Below, one piece after another: positions 38,061 to 61,020 of a stretch of 64,000 nucleotides of DNA. Origin of the DNA: Chryseobacterium sp. C-71 (GTDB lineage Bacteria; Bacteroidota; Bacteroidia; Flavobacteriales; Weeksellaceae); assembly GCF_020911865.1 (NCBI RefSeq), contig NZ_CP087131.1, forward strand, positions 3,720,001 to 3,784,000, written 5' to 3'. Both the position numbers and the translations under genes were made by a program. Numbering within the stretch: the first letter of the stretch is position 1; each line of letters starts with the position of its first letter. The notes beneath the pieces are model-generated. The model searched no databases. It was not told the origin of the DNA and worked only from the letters and a program-made list of their open reading frames with translations.

Positions 38061-38085
38061 GTCATTCTGACGAAGGAAGAATCTC
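38061..38085 (+). repeat. GTCATTCTGA...GAATCTC repeat, solo copy 1
   Basis: Shares GTCATTCTGA and GAAGAATCTC with the 38-bp terminal repeats of the GIY-YIG unit at 58076-58473, but the middle is shorter (CGAAG). An identical copy lies at 38673-38697. Confidence 0.65.
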
Positions 38086-38158: not shown

Positions 38159-38223
38159 TTGTCATTCCGGAGGAATCTCAACACACTGAAAATAAAGCAG
38201 TTTAGATTCCTCCGGAATGACAA
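38159..38223. repeat. Palindrome of TTGTCATTCCGGAGGAATCT
   Basis: Perfect 20-bp inverted repeat (38159-38178 and 38204-38223) around a 25-nt spacer. The arm TTGTCATTCCGGAGGAATCT is a variant of the GTCATTC...GAATCTC family. It can form a strong hairpin and may also end transcription of tag. Confidence 0.75.
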
Positions 38224-38672: not shown

Positions 38673-38697
38673 GTCATTCTGACGAAGGAAGAATCTC
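38673..38697 (+). repeat. GTCATTCTGA...GAATCTC repeat, solo copy 2
   Basis: Identical to 38061-38085 and, with the preceding TTT, over 28 nt. Same orientation, 612 nt away. Confidence 0.65.
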
Positions 38698-56710: not shown

Positions 56711-56760
56711 TTCCCCTTCTTTGAAGGGGTGGATTCAACGAAGTTGAAGACGAGGTAGTT
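56711..56760. repeat. Hairpin repeat, CCCCTTC...GGGGTGG type, copy 2
   Basis: CCCCTTCTTTGAAGGGGTGG, then CAACGAAGTTG, then GACGAGGTAGTTT. Same order of parts as 3674-3732. Its end overlaps the stop codon of the convergent glycosyltransferase gene, so it probably works as a terminator for both genes. Confidence 0.65.
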
Positions 56761-58055
56761 TACAAAATCTCAGCTAAAGTTTTTGTTAAATTCTTTCTGG
56801 AAAACTGTTTAATATTTCTAGTATTTTCTAAAAGATTTCCAGCTTTCCAAAGTTCAAATTTCTCTAAAATAAATTGCTTAATCGTTTCAGAATCCTGATA
56901 ACCGAAATGCTTTCCTGCATCGGTTTCATCTAAAATTTTTGATACATCAGCATCATGCGGACCGAAAGAAATAATCTGTTTCCCAGTTGCCAAATATTCA
57001 AATATTTTCCCTGGGATAATTCCTTTCGAAGATTCATTGGGGAAGTTGGTAATTAACAGTATAGAAGAATTTGACATTTCGTCAATCGCTTTTTCATGCG
57101 ACAGATAACCCAAATTTTCAATGTAATTTTTTAAACTTGAATTTTCTATAGAATTCAAAATCTTATCATCAATTCTTCCTACAAATTTCAATTTGAAATT
57201 CTTTGCAAAATCATTATTTGTTTTCACTAAATCATCAAGTGCTTTCCAAAGGTTTTCAGGGTTTCTCAATTGTTCAAGAACGCCTATATAGCTGAGCGTG
57301 AATTTTGTTGGGGAGTTTGAAGGTTTGAGAGTTTGAGAGTTTGATGAGTCGCTTTCATCAAAACCGTTTGTAATACACACTGCATTAGCTCTGTTTTTTC
57401 TGAAATTTTCAGCATCAGTGTAGCTTGTGGCTAAGGTAATGTCTGCATTTTGGAAAACTTCACTTTCAAGCTGACGGTGCTTTTTATCTGATTTATTCGT
57501 TAGTTTTAAATGTTTATAATAAGAAATCTCTGTCCAGGGATCACGGAAATCTGCAATCCATTTGACGTTTGGGAATTTCTTTTTTAAATTTAAACCGATC
57601 AGATGCAAAGAATGTGGTGGCCCAGAAGTTACTACTACATCAATATTATTTATTTTTAAGTATTGCTCAAGAAATTTCACAGAAGGATTTACCCAAAAAA
57701 CTCTTGCATCGGGAATGAAAAAATTTCCACGAACCCAAATTGAAAGTTTAGATTTCCAGCTTTGGTTATTTCCCACATCAAACTGTCCGGCCTTGAATTT
57801 TTTATTGCTTTTATTAAGCTTTTCAGCCAACTGATAAGGTTCCCAGATTTTAGTTTTTATAATTTCTAAATCTTTAGGAACATCTTTCATTAAACTTTCA
57901 TCAATCAAAGGATAACTCGGATTTTCCGGAGTGAAGATGATTGGTTTCCAACCAAATTCCGGTAAATATTTTGCAAACTTCAACCATCGCTGAACTCCCG
58001 GTCCACCTGCCGGCGGCCAGTAATAGGTGATGATAAGGATTTTTTTTTCCGGCAT
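56760..58055 (-). CDS. GT4-type glycosyltransferase with an internal octamer repeat
   Basis: 431 aa, GT-B fold. N-terminal glycine loop ITYYWPPAGGPGVQRWLKFAKYL, then VTSGPPHSLHLIG and WIADFRDPWTE. The C-terminal domain has LSYIGVLEQLRNPE, FKLKFVGR and the donor-binding GIIPGKIFEYLATGKQII. Residues about 244-256 (SNSQTLKPSNSPT) are encoded by four 8-bp repeats (57313-57344) and look inserted. Surface polysaccharide synthesis is likely. The gene lies downstream of yfhO with a GIY-YIG unit between them. Confidence 0.85.
   Translation of the reverse strand: MPEKKILIITYYWPPAGGPGVQRWLKFAKYLPEFGWKPIIFTPENPSYPLIDESLMKDVPKDLEIIKTKIWEPYQLAEKLNKSNKKFKAGQFDVGNNQSWKSKLSIWVRGNFFIPDARVFWVNPSVKFLEQYLKINNIDVVVTSGPPHSLHLIGLNLKKKFPNVKWIADFRDPWTEISYYKHLKLTNKSDKKHRQLESEVFQNADITLATSYTDAENFRKNRANAVCITNGFDESDSSNSQTLKPSNSPTKFTLSYIGVLEQLRNPENLWKALDDLVKTNNDFAKNFKLKFVGRIDDKILNSIENSSLKNYIENLGYLSHEKAIDEMSNSSILLITNFPNESSKGIIPGKIFEYLATGKQIISFGPHDADVSKILDETDAGKHFGYQDSETIKQFILEKFELWKAGNLLENTRNIKQFSRKNLTKTLAEIL
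57313..57344 (-). repeat. 8-bp tandem repeat inside the glycosyltransferase gene
   Basis: Four octamers, minus strand TCAAACTC, TCAAACTC, TCAAACCT, TCAAACTC. Eight is not a multiple of three, so loss or gain of one unit shifts the frame. Confidence 0.8.
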
Positions 58056-58075
58056 GGGTTTAAAAAAGTGTTGTT

Positions 58076-58473
58076 GTCATTCTGAATGAAGCAAAGCGTA
58101 ATGAAGAATCTCATTAAATTTCATCATTCAAAAATTTCCAAGTAGGATTAAATTCTTTTATCAGGTTGTTTTTTTTAATTCTTGTCCAACCTTTTATTTG
58201 TTTCTCTCTTTTGATCGCAGTTTCAATGTCACTGAATTGCTCGAAGTAGATTAAACAAAAGCATTTGTATTTAGTGGTAAAATGTTTATCAATTGCTTCA
58301 GGATTTTGATGCCAGTATAATCTAATTTTTAAGTCATTAGTTACTCCTGTATACAATACCGTTTTTATTTTATTAGTTAAAATATAAACGTAGTAATTAT
58401 GAGTTCCTAAAGTTTTCATGTTCTTAAGATATTTTTGAGATTCTTCACTTCGCTTTGCTCCATTCAGAATGAC
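58076..58473 (-). mobile_element. Candidate mini-element: GIY-YIG gene between 38-bp inverted repeats
   Basis: Left repeat 58076-58113 starts GTCATTCTGAATGAAGCAAA and ends TGAAGAATCTCA. The reverse complement of the right repeat 58436-58473 starts GTCATTCTGAATGGAGCAAA and ends TGAAGAATCTCA. They match at 35 of 38 positions. The only gene inside is a GIY-YIG nuclease whose stop codon touches the inner edge of the left repeat. The unit fills the gap between yfhO (7 nt away) and the glycosyltransferase (20 nt away). Mobility is inferred. Confidence 0.6.
58114..58419 (-). CDS. GIY-YIG nuclease family protein (UvrC-like domain only)
   Basis: 101 aa, a stand-alone GIY-YIG domain of the YhbQ/COG2827 type. 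The GIY-like YVYILTN and YIG-like YTGVTND are at the start. The conserved Arg is in LKIRLYWH and the metal-binding Glu in DIETAIKREKQIKGW. All catalytic positions appear intact. Its TAA stop abuts an inverted repeat and another copy lies 17 nt before its start. Such genes are common in flavobacteria, often several per genome. Biological role unknown. Confidence 0.85.
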   Translation of the reverse strand: MKTLGTHNYYVYILTNKIKTVLYTGVTNDLKIRLYWHQNPEAIDKHFTTKYKCFCLIYFEQFSDIETAIKREKQIKGWTRIKKNNLIKEFNPTWKFLNDEI

Positions 58474-58479
58474 AGAATG

Positions 58480-61020
58480 TTAAATCTTTTCTTCAATCAA
58501 AACTTCTTTCTTTTTGCTTTTATTCAGCCAGAAAATTCCAAAAGCGCTCAAAGCAACAAACAATCCGAAACATAACATTGAAATCCATTTTCCTGTGGCG
58601 ATAACTTCAGGTTCAAAAACCATTCTGATGCTGTGTTCTCCCGCTGGAACGTGTACTGCACGCAATAAATAATCTGCCTTTATGTACGGAACTTCTTTTT
58701 CATCTACAAACATTTTCCAGCCATGAGGATAATAAATCTCTGAAAATACAGCTAACTGTGGAGTTTTCGATTGAGATTTAAACTCCAGTTCGTTGGCTTC
58801 GTATTTTGTTAAATTAATGGAAGCTGTAGAATCTGCCTGAACCTGCTTTCCGTTCAAATAAGCTTTGTCTTCAACGTTGATAACTGCAGTTTTTTTAGAA
58901 TCAATATTTCCAAGTGATTTTATTTCTTCGTCCGGAGTATTTACAAATTTTACATCAGCAACAAACCATGCATTTCCGTTGGCATTAGGATTCGGAACAA
59001 CTTGTGGCTCCTGCGGATTTCCGAAAACCATGTATTTTGTATTCAGTAAATTCAGGATTTTAGGTGTTTTTACGCTGTCTACATTCGAAATGTATTCATT
59101 CATTAAATCATCATAACGTCTCAGTCTCACTGCGTGATAACCACCTATGGAAGATTTAAAATAAGACGTGTTCGTTTCACTTGTTACACCCAAAACCTGA
59201 TTGTAAACTCGGTAATGTTTTTTGTCTTTTTCAGCAATCGTTTCCAAAGTTTTATTGACAGGAATACTTGCCATAATAGACTGTAAATTTGGATTGTCAC
59301 CTACTTTTTCGGCTAAATAATCTGAACCTTCAGTTTGAAAAGGATTTTCAGCAAAGATTTTATCAACGTAATTTTCGTCATTCAGATAACGTTTGTTTAC
59401 TGTCCATAAATCAAACAAACTTACTGCACCGATGATGAGTAATGCTACGTTCTGATTCAGTTTTTGTTTTAGACTAAAGAATAAAACAGCTGCGGTAATT
59501 CCAACATAAAGTAATGCTTTAATCGCATCAATTCTGAATAATTTGAATCTTTCTTCCGTTAAATAATCTAACAGGAAAGGTGGTAAATATGTTTTCTCGT
59601 TATCTGTATGGAAACCTAACAAAGCCTTCCCAAAAACAATCAATAATAAAGTTAAACCTAAAACTCCTCCGCTTACATAGGTTAGAATTTTCTTTTTGTA
59701 AGCTTCCTCTAAAGTTGAATCTTTGTAAAATCTGTACAATCCAATGATGGCAATCAGTGGGAATAATAATTCCACCACAACCAAAATAGACGACGGTGCT
59801 CTGAATTTGCTGTAAAAAGGAACATATTCAATGAAGAAATCTGAAAGCGGCATGAAGTTGCTTCCCCAAGCCAATAAAATGGTCAGAATAGTCGCTCCGA
59901 GAATCCAGTAGCGGTATTTTTTCCAGGCAAAAAAGAATCCTAATAGTGCAAGGAAACAAACAATTGCTCCTTGATACGCTGGTCCCGAAGTTCCAGGTTG
60001 ATCGCCCCAATAGGTGATGCTGCCAAAACCTTTAGAAATTCTGTCATATTCGGCTTGTGAAGTGACGTTATCCTGTACCAACTGCTGTACGTTTTCCATC
60101 ATTTCTTTTCCTTCAGGCTCCTGGCTTCCGCCTCCCATCAATCTTGGAATGAATAGATTTAAAGTTTCCAATTTACCGTAACTCCACATCAGTATACTTT
60201 CTTTATCCATTCCGGAATTTCCGGCGGTGTGGGTTTCTGTATTTAAAATCTGTTTTCCTCTTACGGTTTCTTTGATGTACTCAGAGTTAGCCATGATTCG
60301 CTGAGAGTTCATCCCAACGCCAATCGCTAAAGCACCGGCAATAATTCCTGATGAGATCAAGAAATGCTTCATCGGAGTTTTCTTTTGGATGGCTCTGATT
60401 AATTCAGATAAAAATAAAAATCCAAGTCCTAAAAACAGATAGTACGTCATCTGCGGGTGATTGGCGGCGACCTGCAATCCGAAGAACAGGGTAGTGACAA
60501 TAAATCCGAGAACGTATTTTTTTCTAATATACACCAATAAAATTCCGGCTAAAAGCGGCGCAAAATATTCAATGGTATTCACTTTTCCGTTATGTCCGGC
60601 AGCAATGATGATGTAGAAATAGGTGGAAAGCCCGAAAAATGTAGCTCCCAAAAGCGCATATTTCCAATTTCTTACAGCGACCATCCCTAAAAGGAAAAAT
60701 CCTGAAAATAAAAGGAATAAGTAGTTGACAGGTCTCGGAAGAATATTCAGATAACTGTCTAATTTTTTAATAATATCACCTTCAAAACGGCTTCCCATCT
60801 GGTAGGTGGGCATACCGCCAAACATCGAGTCACTCCAATACGTTTCTTTATCGTAAGTGTCTCTGTAATCGATGAGTTCTTTGGCTCCGCCTCGATACTG
60901 AACGATATCATGCTGGAAAAGCTGCTTCCCCGTAAACACAGGAGTAGAATATAAAAATGCTAAAACTAAGAATGCGACGATGGAAATCGCAATATAAATT
61001 AAGTTTTTATTTTTCGCCAT
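58480..61020 (-). CDS. YfhO family membrane protein
   Basis: 846 aa. About twelve to fourteen membrane helices beginning LIYIAISIVAFLVLAFLYS, with a large extracytoplasmic loop segment at about 590-790 and a final helix (WISMLCFGLFVALSAFGIFWL). Motifs such as QHDIVQYRGGAKELIDYR and YPHGWKMFVDEKEVPYI are typical of the GT-C-like YfhO family. In Gram-positives YfhO helps glycosylate teichoic acids. In Bacteroidota the role is unknown but likely glycan transfer, which fits the glycosyltransferase downstream. Confidence 0.88.
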   Translation of the reverse strand: MAKNKNLIYIAISIVAFLVLAFLYSTPVFTGKQLFQHDIVQYRGGAKELIDYRDTYDKETYWSDSMFGGMPTYQMGSRFEGDIIKKLDSYLNILPRPVNYLFLLFSGFFLLGMVAVRNWKYALLGATFFGLSTYFYIIIAAGHNGKVNTIEYFAPLLAGILLVYIRKKYVLGFIVTTLFFGLQVAANHPQMTYYLFLGLGFLFLSELIRAIQKKTPMKHFLISSGIIAGALAIGVGMNSQRIMANSEYIKETVRGKQILNTETHTAGNSGMDKESILMWSYGKLETLNLFIPRLMGGGSQEPEGKEMMENVQQLVQDNVTSQAEYDRISKGFGSITYWGDQPGTSGPAYQGAIVCFLALLGFFFAWKKYRYWILGATILTILLAWGSNFMPLSDFFIEYVPFYSKFRAPSSILVVVELLFPLIAIIGLYRFYKDSTLEEAYKKKILTYVSGGVLGLTLLLIVFGKALLGFHTDNEKTYLPPFLLDYLTEERFKLFRIDAIKALLYVGITAAVLFFSLKQKLNQNVALLIIGAVSLFDLWTVNKRYLNDENYVDKIFAENPFQTEGSDYLAEKVGDNPNLQSIMASIPVNKTLETIAEKDKKHYRVYNQVLGVTSETNTSYFKSSIGGYHAVRLRRYDDLMNEYISNVDSVKTPKILNLLNTKYMVFGNPQEPQVVPNPNANGNAWFVADVKFVNTPDEEIKSLGNIDSKKTAVINVEDKAYLNGKQVQADSTASINLTKYEANELEFKSQSKTPQLAVFSEIYYPHGWKMFVDEKEVPYIKADYLLRAVHVPAGEHSIRMVFEPEVIATGKWISMLCFGLFVALSAFGIFWLNKSKKKEVLIEEKI

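Follow-up and report, generated by a model that had tools for sequence, protein, structure and literature searches.

Short palindromic repeats fill the intergenic DNA of many bacteria, and RAYT transposases account for one large class of them. In REP/RAYT systems, a small gene lies between inverted short palindromes with a fixed 5' head, the repeats are dispersed as doublets or singles and are commoner where the gene is present, and inheritance is vertical (PMC2817692, PMC8266576, PMC8049555). A neisserial repeat, dRS3, is given as ATTCCC(N8)GGGAAT, with almost 700 copies in the meningococcus (PMC3898611). The words RAYT and transposase do not occur in the searched text of the RepRanger paper (PMC12306157). 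For repeats of the GTC-hairpin-ATC form, we found no named enzyme. Our search, which covered open PMC full text and was judged partly by title or top matches, listed no paper on a pairing of GIY-YIG proteins with palindromic repeats. The combination of GIY-YIG with RAYT yielded mostly papers on fungal mitogenomes and, by title, none on such a pairing, and the repeat sequences used as literature text gave a match in a Neisseria pilus paper.

GIY-YIG nucleases are known to act in restriction, in repair and in the homing of introns or free-standing genes, and homing nucleases place copies of themselves in the target that they recognize. The stand-alone GIY-YIG proteins of the UPF0213 family are those of the YhbQ type. 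Here, we describe a small GIY-YIG gene and its repeats in the window, that is, the whole 64-kb stretch of Chryseobacterium sp. C-71 DNA that was analysed, and we compare them with related loci in the genus and beyond.

Results

A GIY-YIG gene enclosed by inverted repeats

The original prediction held that a GIY-YIG nuclease gene in the window is framed by terminal inverted repeats, with 35 of 38 positions matching for the arm at 58076-58113. This match was reproduced, and a repeat search of the window confirmed the frame with slightly longer arms of 39 nt, at 58075..58113 (plus strand) and 58436..58474 (minus strand), which are 92% complementary, are separated by 322 nt and are identical at 36/39 positions by direct count. 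The left arm is a REP-like repeat with a GTC head and an imperfect hairpin (GTCATTCTGAATGAAGCAAAGCGTAATGAAGAATCTC); the right arm is the same repeat inverted and lies upstream of the gene. The window contains two matches to a 23-nt arm core when up to 3 mismatches are allowed, whereas 100 dinucleotide shuffles gave no match. The sole ORF of at least 60 aa inside the arms (58114..58419, minus strand, 101 aa) starts 16 nt from the right-hand arm. Its TAA stop codon (58116-58114) abuts the arm ending at 58113, in agreement with the claim that it touches the inner edge of one repeat. The flanking ORFs at 56760-58055 and 58480-61020 had been read in the same prediction as a putative glycosyltransferase and a putative yfhO, respectively.

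Related repeats had also been reported elsewhere in the window, and these proved real by pattern search. Two solo dispersed repeats of a related type (GTCATTCTGACGAAGGAAGAATCT) lie at 38061..38084 and 38673..38696, both on the plus strand. A third repeat, at 38161..38178 (plus strand, GTCATTCCGGAGGAATCT), is the left half of a gene-less doublet whose inverted right half at 38204..38221 (minus strand) had been overlooked; this type is seen beside the host's second GIY-YIG subfamily (L002). The strict hairpin motif defined below was found 7 times in the window, versus 0 to 5 times in the base-shuffled window.

The window protein matched the Pfam GIY-YIG domain (PF01541) with 56.3 bits against a cut-off of 22.6, and the Pfam scan of its 101 residues detected no other domain and no Y1/HUH transposase domain. 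Residues Y12, Y23, G25, R33, H37, E72 and N91 were invariant in a 41-row alignment; all of these except H37 are what we take to be catalytic positions of the domain. Judged by its domain score and its conserved Tyr, Gly, Arg, Glu and Asn residues, the protein is a member of the GIY-YIG nuclease superfamily. A protein search yielded at least 7998 relatives, and Chryseobacterium supplied most of the best named matches. The closest solved structures by sequence were 1zg2 and 1ywl. The structure model (pLDDT 89.7) was best matched in fold by UPF0213 1zg2 (E 5.5e-4, 30% identity), the only Foldseek match below 0.001, followed by Slx1 and UvrC with E values above 0.03.

Each GIY-YIG subfamily carries its own repeat type

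The host genome consists of one 4.22-Mb contig, in which a single-protein search revealed 5 GIY-YIG relatives and a profile search 8 matches. Three of the five, the window copy and two others (L003 and L004), are framed by inverted repeats, and L003 and L004 are bounded by a different repeat (GTCATTGCGAGGAGCGAAGCGACGAAGCAATCT and a near variant). L002 lies within a cluster of short doublets (repeat GTCATTCCGNAGGAATC), and the fifth relative (L005) lies beside a third repeat type. A loose repeat pattern was found at 39 places in this genome versus 3 for a reversed control. Among host repeats no more than 400 bp apart, we counted by eye 8 convergent pairs (7 short-spacer doublets and the window unit), 1 same-direction pair and no divergent pair.

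We then surveyed 60 genomes of the genus, 49 of which contain a GIY-YIG relative, and scored 127 gene places (L121 was left out of the inverted-repeat scoring; L240 and L265 were left without a score in a repeat scoring of loci). Three subfamilies near the window protein, Q1, Q2 and Q3, each had its own repeat type. An inverted-repeat score of at least 26 was reached at 14/16 Q1, 23/23 Q3 and 5/12 Q2 genes; the 99th percentile of 1291 random intervals was 25 and their maximum 46. The strict motif (GTCA[TC], a stem of 5, a loop, the complementary stem, C[TC]) was present within 300 bp of all testable genes (Q1, 15/15, with 1 of the 16 genes left out for its short flanks; Q2, 12/12; Q3, 23/23; 50/50 together), and it was convergent on both sides of the gene at 10 Q1, 10 Q2 and 21 Q3 genes. 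In families further from the window protein, the motif was near just 2 of 70 genes (three bins), and some of these distant families had other inverted repeats, e.g., GTCACCCTGAGCTTGTCGAAG. Thus, other copies of the gene do carry flanking repeats, as had been anticipated, and both the architecture and its specificity to these GIY-YIG subfamilies are plain. The notion that the repeats might enclose unrelated genes equally often was not borne out: among the repeat pairs listed, 7 of 8 convergent pairs lying 200-450 bp apart enclosed a GIY-YIG gene (counted by eye), the eighth being a doublet with a tandem duplication.

Within the Q1-Q3 sets, median dN/dS was 0.076 at the Q1 site (11/28 pairs usable), 0.069 and 0.067 for Q3 (57/66 and 21/21) and 0.10 for Q2 (28/55), with many of the other pairs synonymously saturated. 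These medians of 0.07-0.10 indicate purifying selection on the GIY-YIG orthologues.

Tandem arrays were also observed. A more distant GIY-YIG family is arrayed in this way in G013 (L134), G019 (L143), G056 (L124), G016 (L131) and G006 (L135); its units measure about 357-363 bp, each gene has a palindrome close by, and two to four or more copies follow one another. Two gene-less arrays consist of five ~287-bp units with one doublet each (L422, G026:C1:1168300-1170400) and of four 142-bp units with one repeat each (L424, G038:C1:908300-909300).

The repeats covary as predicted hairpins

The repeats share a GTC head, a stem of the form AT-xyz...z'y'x'-AT and a CT or CC tail, with GTCAT-stem...stem-ATC as the strict form. 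Among 85 distinct 36-nt Q1 repeats, positions 12-26, 16-22 and 17-21 could pair in 73, 80 and 80 sequences, respectively, versus at most 52, 60 and 58 in 2000 shuffles. These sequences are related rather than independent, and the three pairs were chosen after inspection of 37 of the same 85, since they were taken from an all-against-all ranking. Covarying pairs switched among C-G, T-A and A-T, or between G-C and A-T types. Compensatory changes of this kind indicate hairpin covariation in the repeats, although similar symmetry could result from quasi-palindrome correction during replication. Compared with shuffles, standard DNA folding gave z scores of -0.2 for a single Q1 repeat and +1.4 for Q3, no better than shuffles, -3.1 for the short Q2 repeat and -10.5 for a doublet. 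GNA steps in the repeat are, in our reading, reminiscent of stable DNA mini-hairpins such as GCGAAGC.

Repeats are more abundant in genomes with the matching gene

Dispersed repeats were commoner in genomes with the matching gene. The median number of Q1 repeats was 15 where a Q1 gene is present in either intact or broken form (14 genomes), versus 1 in the 46 genomes without (p 2e-6), and that of Q3 repeats was 12.5 in 22 genomes versus 1 in 38 (p 1e-7); these counts include the genes' own arms, and a control pattern gave 0 in each genome. Cross tests were weak, with p 0.03 for Q1 repeats with the Q3 gene and p 0.17 for the other combination. With phylogeny considered (on a tree that includes five gappy rows) and own arms subtracted, independent pairs for Q3 went the same way in 6.4 cases and the opposite way in 0.3 (median p 0.03), those for Q1 split 2.7 to 0, too few to decide, and the cross-controls leaned likewise, at 2.9 to 0.5 and 3.5 to 0.8.

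Among gene-less genomes, repeats linger where a degraded trace of the gene persists at the window site: the median was 7 Q1 repeats in 11 genomes with such a trace versus 0 in 35 without (p 3e-4). In one of the gene-less genomes, G028, we counted 43 Q1 repeats, and its window site retains a degraded doublet; another, G055, has 33, with neither a window-site trace nor a Y1_Tnp match.

Gene, doublet and trace at orthologous sites

The putative yfhO-glycosyltransferase spacer was read in 59 genomes. A copy of the gene, in some cases broken, is present in 10 of them; a degraded trace survives in 13, and the remaining 36 have neither. With G001, which also has the gene beside the glycosyltransferase, the window locus carries a gene copy in 11/60 genomes, some of them broken, so that the unit is not present in all relatives. 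The traces include internal deletions (G053, G016), single arms (G044, G002), 15-nt footprints (G040, G030) and a bare doublet (G028). These counts suggest that the window unit is old and that many lineages have lost it through deletion, rather than that it was freshly inserted. This bears on the original prediction of a minimal REP/RAYT-like element, of which the layout, the specific pairing of GIY-YIG gene and repeat and the solo and doublet repeats elsewhere held up; a mobile element caught moving was not what we saw, since the window copy appears old and decays by deletion, and the majority of the genes occupy orthologous positions that are shared between genomes.

In two other species, different repeat types occupy this spacer: G058 (L153) has a Q2-type doublet there, and in G024 (L162) the repeat pair contains TATCGAGAA and TCGAAGTGACG. 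The spacer may thus be a repeat hot spot.

By flank comparison, which placed most GIY-YIG genes at shared orthologous sites, Q1 genes occupy three sites, Q3 genes two and Q2 genes six (13 Q2 loci); sites were joined when their flanks were similar over 150 bp or more, and diverged sites may therefore be split in these counts. The intergenic site of the host Q2 gene was recognizable on both sides in 6 of the 16 relatives looked at. In the host itself, this site contains the gene as well as a decayed doublet and two other doublets. Among the relatives, G026 has only a short spacer with a stem-loop and no repeat. A perfect doublet is present in G046, one that has half decayed in G049, and decayed ones in G014 and in G033 (decay judged by eye), whereas G034 has a repeat pair of another type. 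Thus, the gene appears where relatives hold a doublet, and presence and absence of gene and doublet are seen at one orthologous site, which fits copying into a doublet or loss from one, in either direction. Comparison of spacers by eye identified no target-site duplication among relatives too diverged to judge.

The pairing extends to other phyla and to plasmid records

Beyond the genus survey, we took the best 80 of 567 loci, all in named records, a sample which for that reason lies nearest the query and includes a few Chryseobacterium (60 Bacteroidota, 10 Bacillota, the remainder from other phyla or unplaced). Three of the 80 were left out of the motif count because of short flanks. Among these best-scoring loci, the strict motif lay within 300 bp in 68/77, on both sides in 48/77 and in convergent orientation in 40/77, and it was missing at 9/77. 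The corresponding figures were 96/1195, 9/1195 and 5/1195 for random positions in the surveyed loci and 1/34, 0/34 and 0/34 for the fetched Y1_Tnp (RAYT-like) loci. A draw by phylum (180 of 296 genomes with a match) gave the motif at 22 of 29 fetched loci and its absence at 7; this set leaves out the host's own copy (L315), and within the draw L317 and L319 are genus loci already counted, L324 has the same flanks as L260, and L310 comes from a contig as long as that of L073 in G041. In named records, the pairing occurs in Bacteroidota, Bacillota, Calditrichota, Thermodesulfobacteriota, Balneolota and Cyanobacteriota, several of them metagenome assemblies, and also in Rhizobium and Shinella plasmid records. 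Some species have up to 15 GIY-YIG matches per genome, with no more than 16 candidates scored in each.

When labelled by its stem pentamer, the repeat type required 45 changes on a protein tree of 128 rows, versus a minimum of 77 in 200 shuffles, and 42 versus 55 with the two broad surveys alone (82 rows, including a few Chryseobacterium); rows were confined to genes that lack a stop and have a hairpin no more than 150 bp away. This distribution on the tree indicates that repeat type is co-inherited with protein type.

A GIY-YIG match was found in 32 plasmid records. Nine loci were fetched, and the motif was near the gene in five (Rhizobium CIAT894, Shinella, Planktothrix, Spirosoma and N. gonorrhoeae) and absent from two Sinorhizobium loci, R. 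tumorigenes and Novosphingobium. The Sinorhizobium and R. tumorigenes loci had similar palindromes with C as the first base (by eye). Four R. leguminosarum plasmid stretches were almost identical to each other, with only stray motif matches that were common to three or four of them, which made them unsuitable for an empty-site comparison. Rhizobium sp. CIAT894 was considered as a clean empty-site case, the right neighbour being conserved in other plasmids without the unit, and was rejected because its left side is an IS4 region. On Planktothrix agardhii plasmid p1 (L348), the GIY-YIG gene and its repeats are flanked by a gene annotated as an MmeI-type restriction enzyme and by one annotated as the DISARM defence gene drmA. 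Two plasmid-labelled records, CP090106.1 (a 3.7-Mb "pSymB" with hfq-hflX) and NZ_CP119142.1 (2.17 Mb, gonococcal), resemble chromosomes. Searches of 50,697 phage records at E 1e-5 gave no match, and Rfam at gathering scores found only two tRNAs at seven loci and no match to the repeats.

Discussion

Our data make a specific and ancient pairing of GIY-YIG nucleases with hairpin repeats very likely. That the nuclease acts on these repeats and spreads them is the best explanation and, on balance, a probable one. We picture a widespread two-part system, in which a small GIY-YIG nuclease gene is coupled to its own family of short hairpin repeats, and inverted repeat pairs enclose the gene or a short spacer (a doublet), or have decayed to a single copy. 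The nuclease would recognize its own repeat as a folded hairpin and nick or cut there, and repair would then carry copies of doublets to other positions and, at times, a copy of the gene into a doublet that is already there, as with homing nucleases. After gene loss, the repeats would stay and then fade, and the gene itself would pass mostly vertically, like domesticated RAYT genes. The occurrence of Q1 genes at three sites only and of Q3 genes at two, as well as repeats in genomes without the gene (G028, G055), speaks against such a system. Also on that side are the loci that lack the motif (9/77 and 7/29), its rarity in the more distant families (2/70), its presence near 5 of the 9 plasmid-record genes, the leaning of the cross-controls, the small number of independent Q1 pairs and the single Q1 and Q3 repeats that fold no better than shuffles.

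Alternatively, the protein could be an immobile nuclease of the host that acts on DNA structures, trimming or resolving hairpins and cruciforms as a small bacterial equivalent of Slx1; the repeats would then be regulatory or substrate sites spread by replication slippage or by another enzyme. The fold matches to UPF0213 (E 5.5e-4) and then to Slx1 and UvrC (>0.03) favour this reading, and strong purifying selection and shared gene positions suit a host gene; however, a host gene for repair would not be expected to require a private repeat type that varies along with the protein, and its presence is patchy, from 49/60 genomes in the genus to up to 15 matches in single genomes elsewhere (of at most 16 candidates scored), so that we consider it unlikely. 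It is less probable still that the GIY-YIG genes are passengers caught between ordinary REPs that are spread by RAYT (Y1/HUH) or another enzyme. An enzyme able to move REPs is indeed often present, since Y1_Tnp exceeded the cut-off in 53/60 genus genomes (about 53-54 over both counts), but among 34 fetched genus loci, about one per genome out of more than 150 matches listed, none had a Q1-, Q2- or Q3-type repeat within 300 bp of the Y1_Tnp gene and only one had the general motif. Moreover, G055 and G024 are without a Y1_Tnp match and yet have 33 and 6 Q1 repeats, the host Y1_Tnp genes (L066-L068) have unrelated palindromes, and passengers would not track repeat type over phyla.

The 398-bp unit might instead be a cut-and-paste transposon with terminal inverted repeats, the GIY-YIG protein being its transposase and the doublets MITEs that arose by internal deletion. 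An arm that abuts the stop codon would suit such an element, as would the internal-deletion derivatives at the window site in G053 and G016 and the bare doublet in G028. The few sites of Q1 and Q3, a target duplication not seen by eye in diverged spacers and the many genes that lie among several repeats of mixed orientation, not between two ends, make it about as improbable as the passenger reading. Mere coincidence with common intergenic hairpins, such as bidirectional terminators, deserves hardly any credence: such repeats are frequent in many genus genomes, and even shuffled bases produce the strict motif, but neither the enrichment among the best 80 of 567 loci over random positions (68/77 versus 96/1195) nor the co-inheritance of repeat type and protein would be expected. 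We retain as our preferred reading a nuclease that acts on and spreads its own repeats.

One small gene family is now tied to GTC-hairpin-ATC repeats by position, repeat type and copy number, and the long-open question of how such repeats arise and spread can therefore be put to a direct test, for which the 101-residue protein and a 36-nt oligonucleotide would serve. The pairing points to an unrecognized enzyme-and-repeat system behind some of the common scattered repeats of bacteria. If the enzyme does spread them, GIY-YIG nucleases would have a role beyond restriction, repair and the homing of introns or free-standing genes. We tentatively suggest, as a possibility on the weaker side of even, that GIY-YIG nucleases form a second, non-homologous enzyme class that makes and maintains REP-like palindromes across bacteria, cutting their own doublets, with repair copying doublets and occasionally the gene (homing into repeats), and that orphan families including Neisseria dRS3/NIME and the Rhizobium and Shinella palindromes belong to one GTC-hairpin-ATC superfamily.

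Among known systems, Neisseria dRS3/NIME is met in one N. gonorrhoeae record, where a stretch of 4.3 kb contains a GIY-YIG relative and, around it, 11 copies of GTC-ATTCCC...GGGAAT-CY; given almost 700 dRS3 copies per meningococcal genome, this nearness may be due to chance. UPF0213/YhbQ-type stand-alone GIY-YIG proteins are alike in that they provide the nearest solved structures (1zg2, 1ywl), whereas the window protein shares 30% identity with 1zg2. With the GIY-YIG homing endonucleases of phages and organelles, the system shares the catalytic domain and a gene at a site that is empty or holds a doublet in relatives; it differs in a protein of 101 aa with no other Pfam domain, in putative targets that form a dispersed repeat family and in the lack of a match among the phage records searched.

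The closest likeness is to REP/REPIN and RAYT (TnpA-REP). Here, too, a single small gene lies between two inverted palindromes with a fixed 5' head that are also dispersed as doublets and singles, the repeats are commoner where the gene is present, and inheritance is probably vertical for the most part. The host seems to have REP-type systems alongside the GIY-YIG one, since its RAYT-like Y1 genes L066-L068 carry palindromes of their own (GCTCCGTAGGAGCG; CCGTAGGTGAAACCTATGG); in the draft genome G012, thirteen Y1 transposase matches fall into identical-score groups, which looks like an IS200-like burst. Two defining features of REP-RAYT set the systems apart. The enzyme there is a HUH/Y1 transposase, whereas Pfam finds only GIY-YIG in our protein and its nearest folds are GIY-YIG; the REP head is GT(A/G)G, whereas GTC stands here directly before the AT-xyz stem, with a CT/CC tail. 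Because of these two differences, the GIY-YIG system is not a member of REP-RAYT, despite an equal layout, and is built on an unrelated nuclease.
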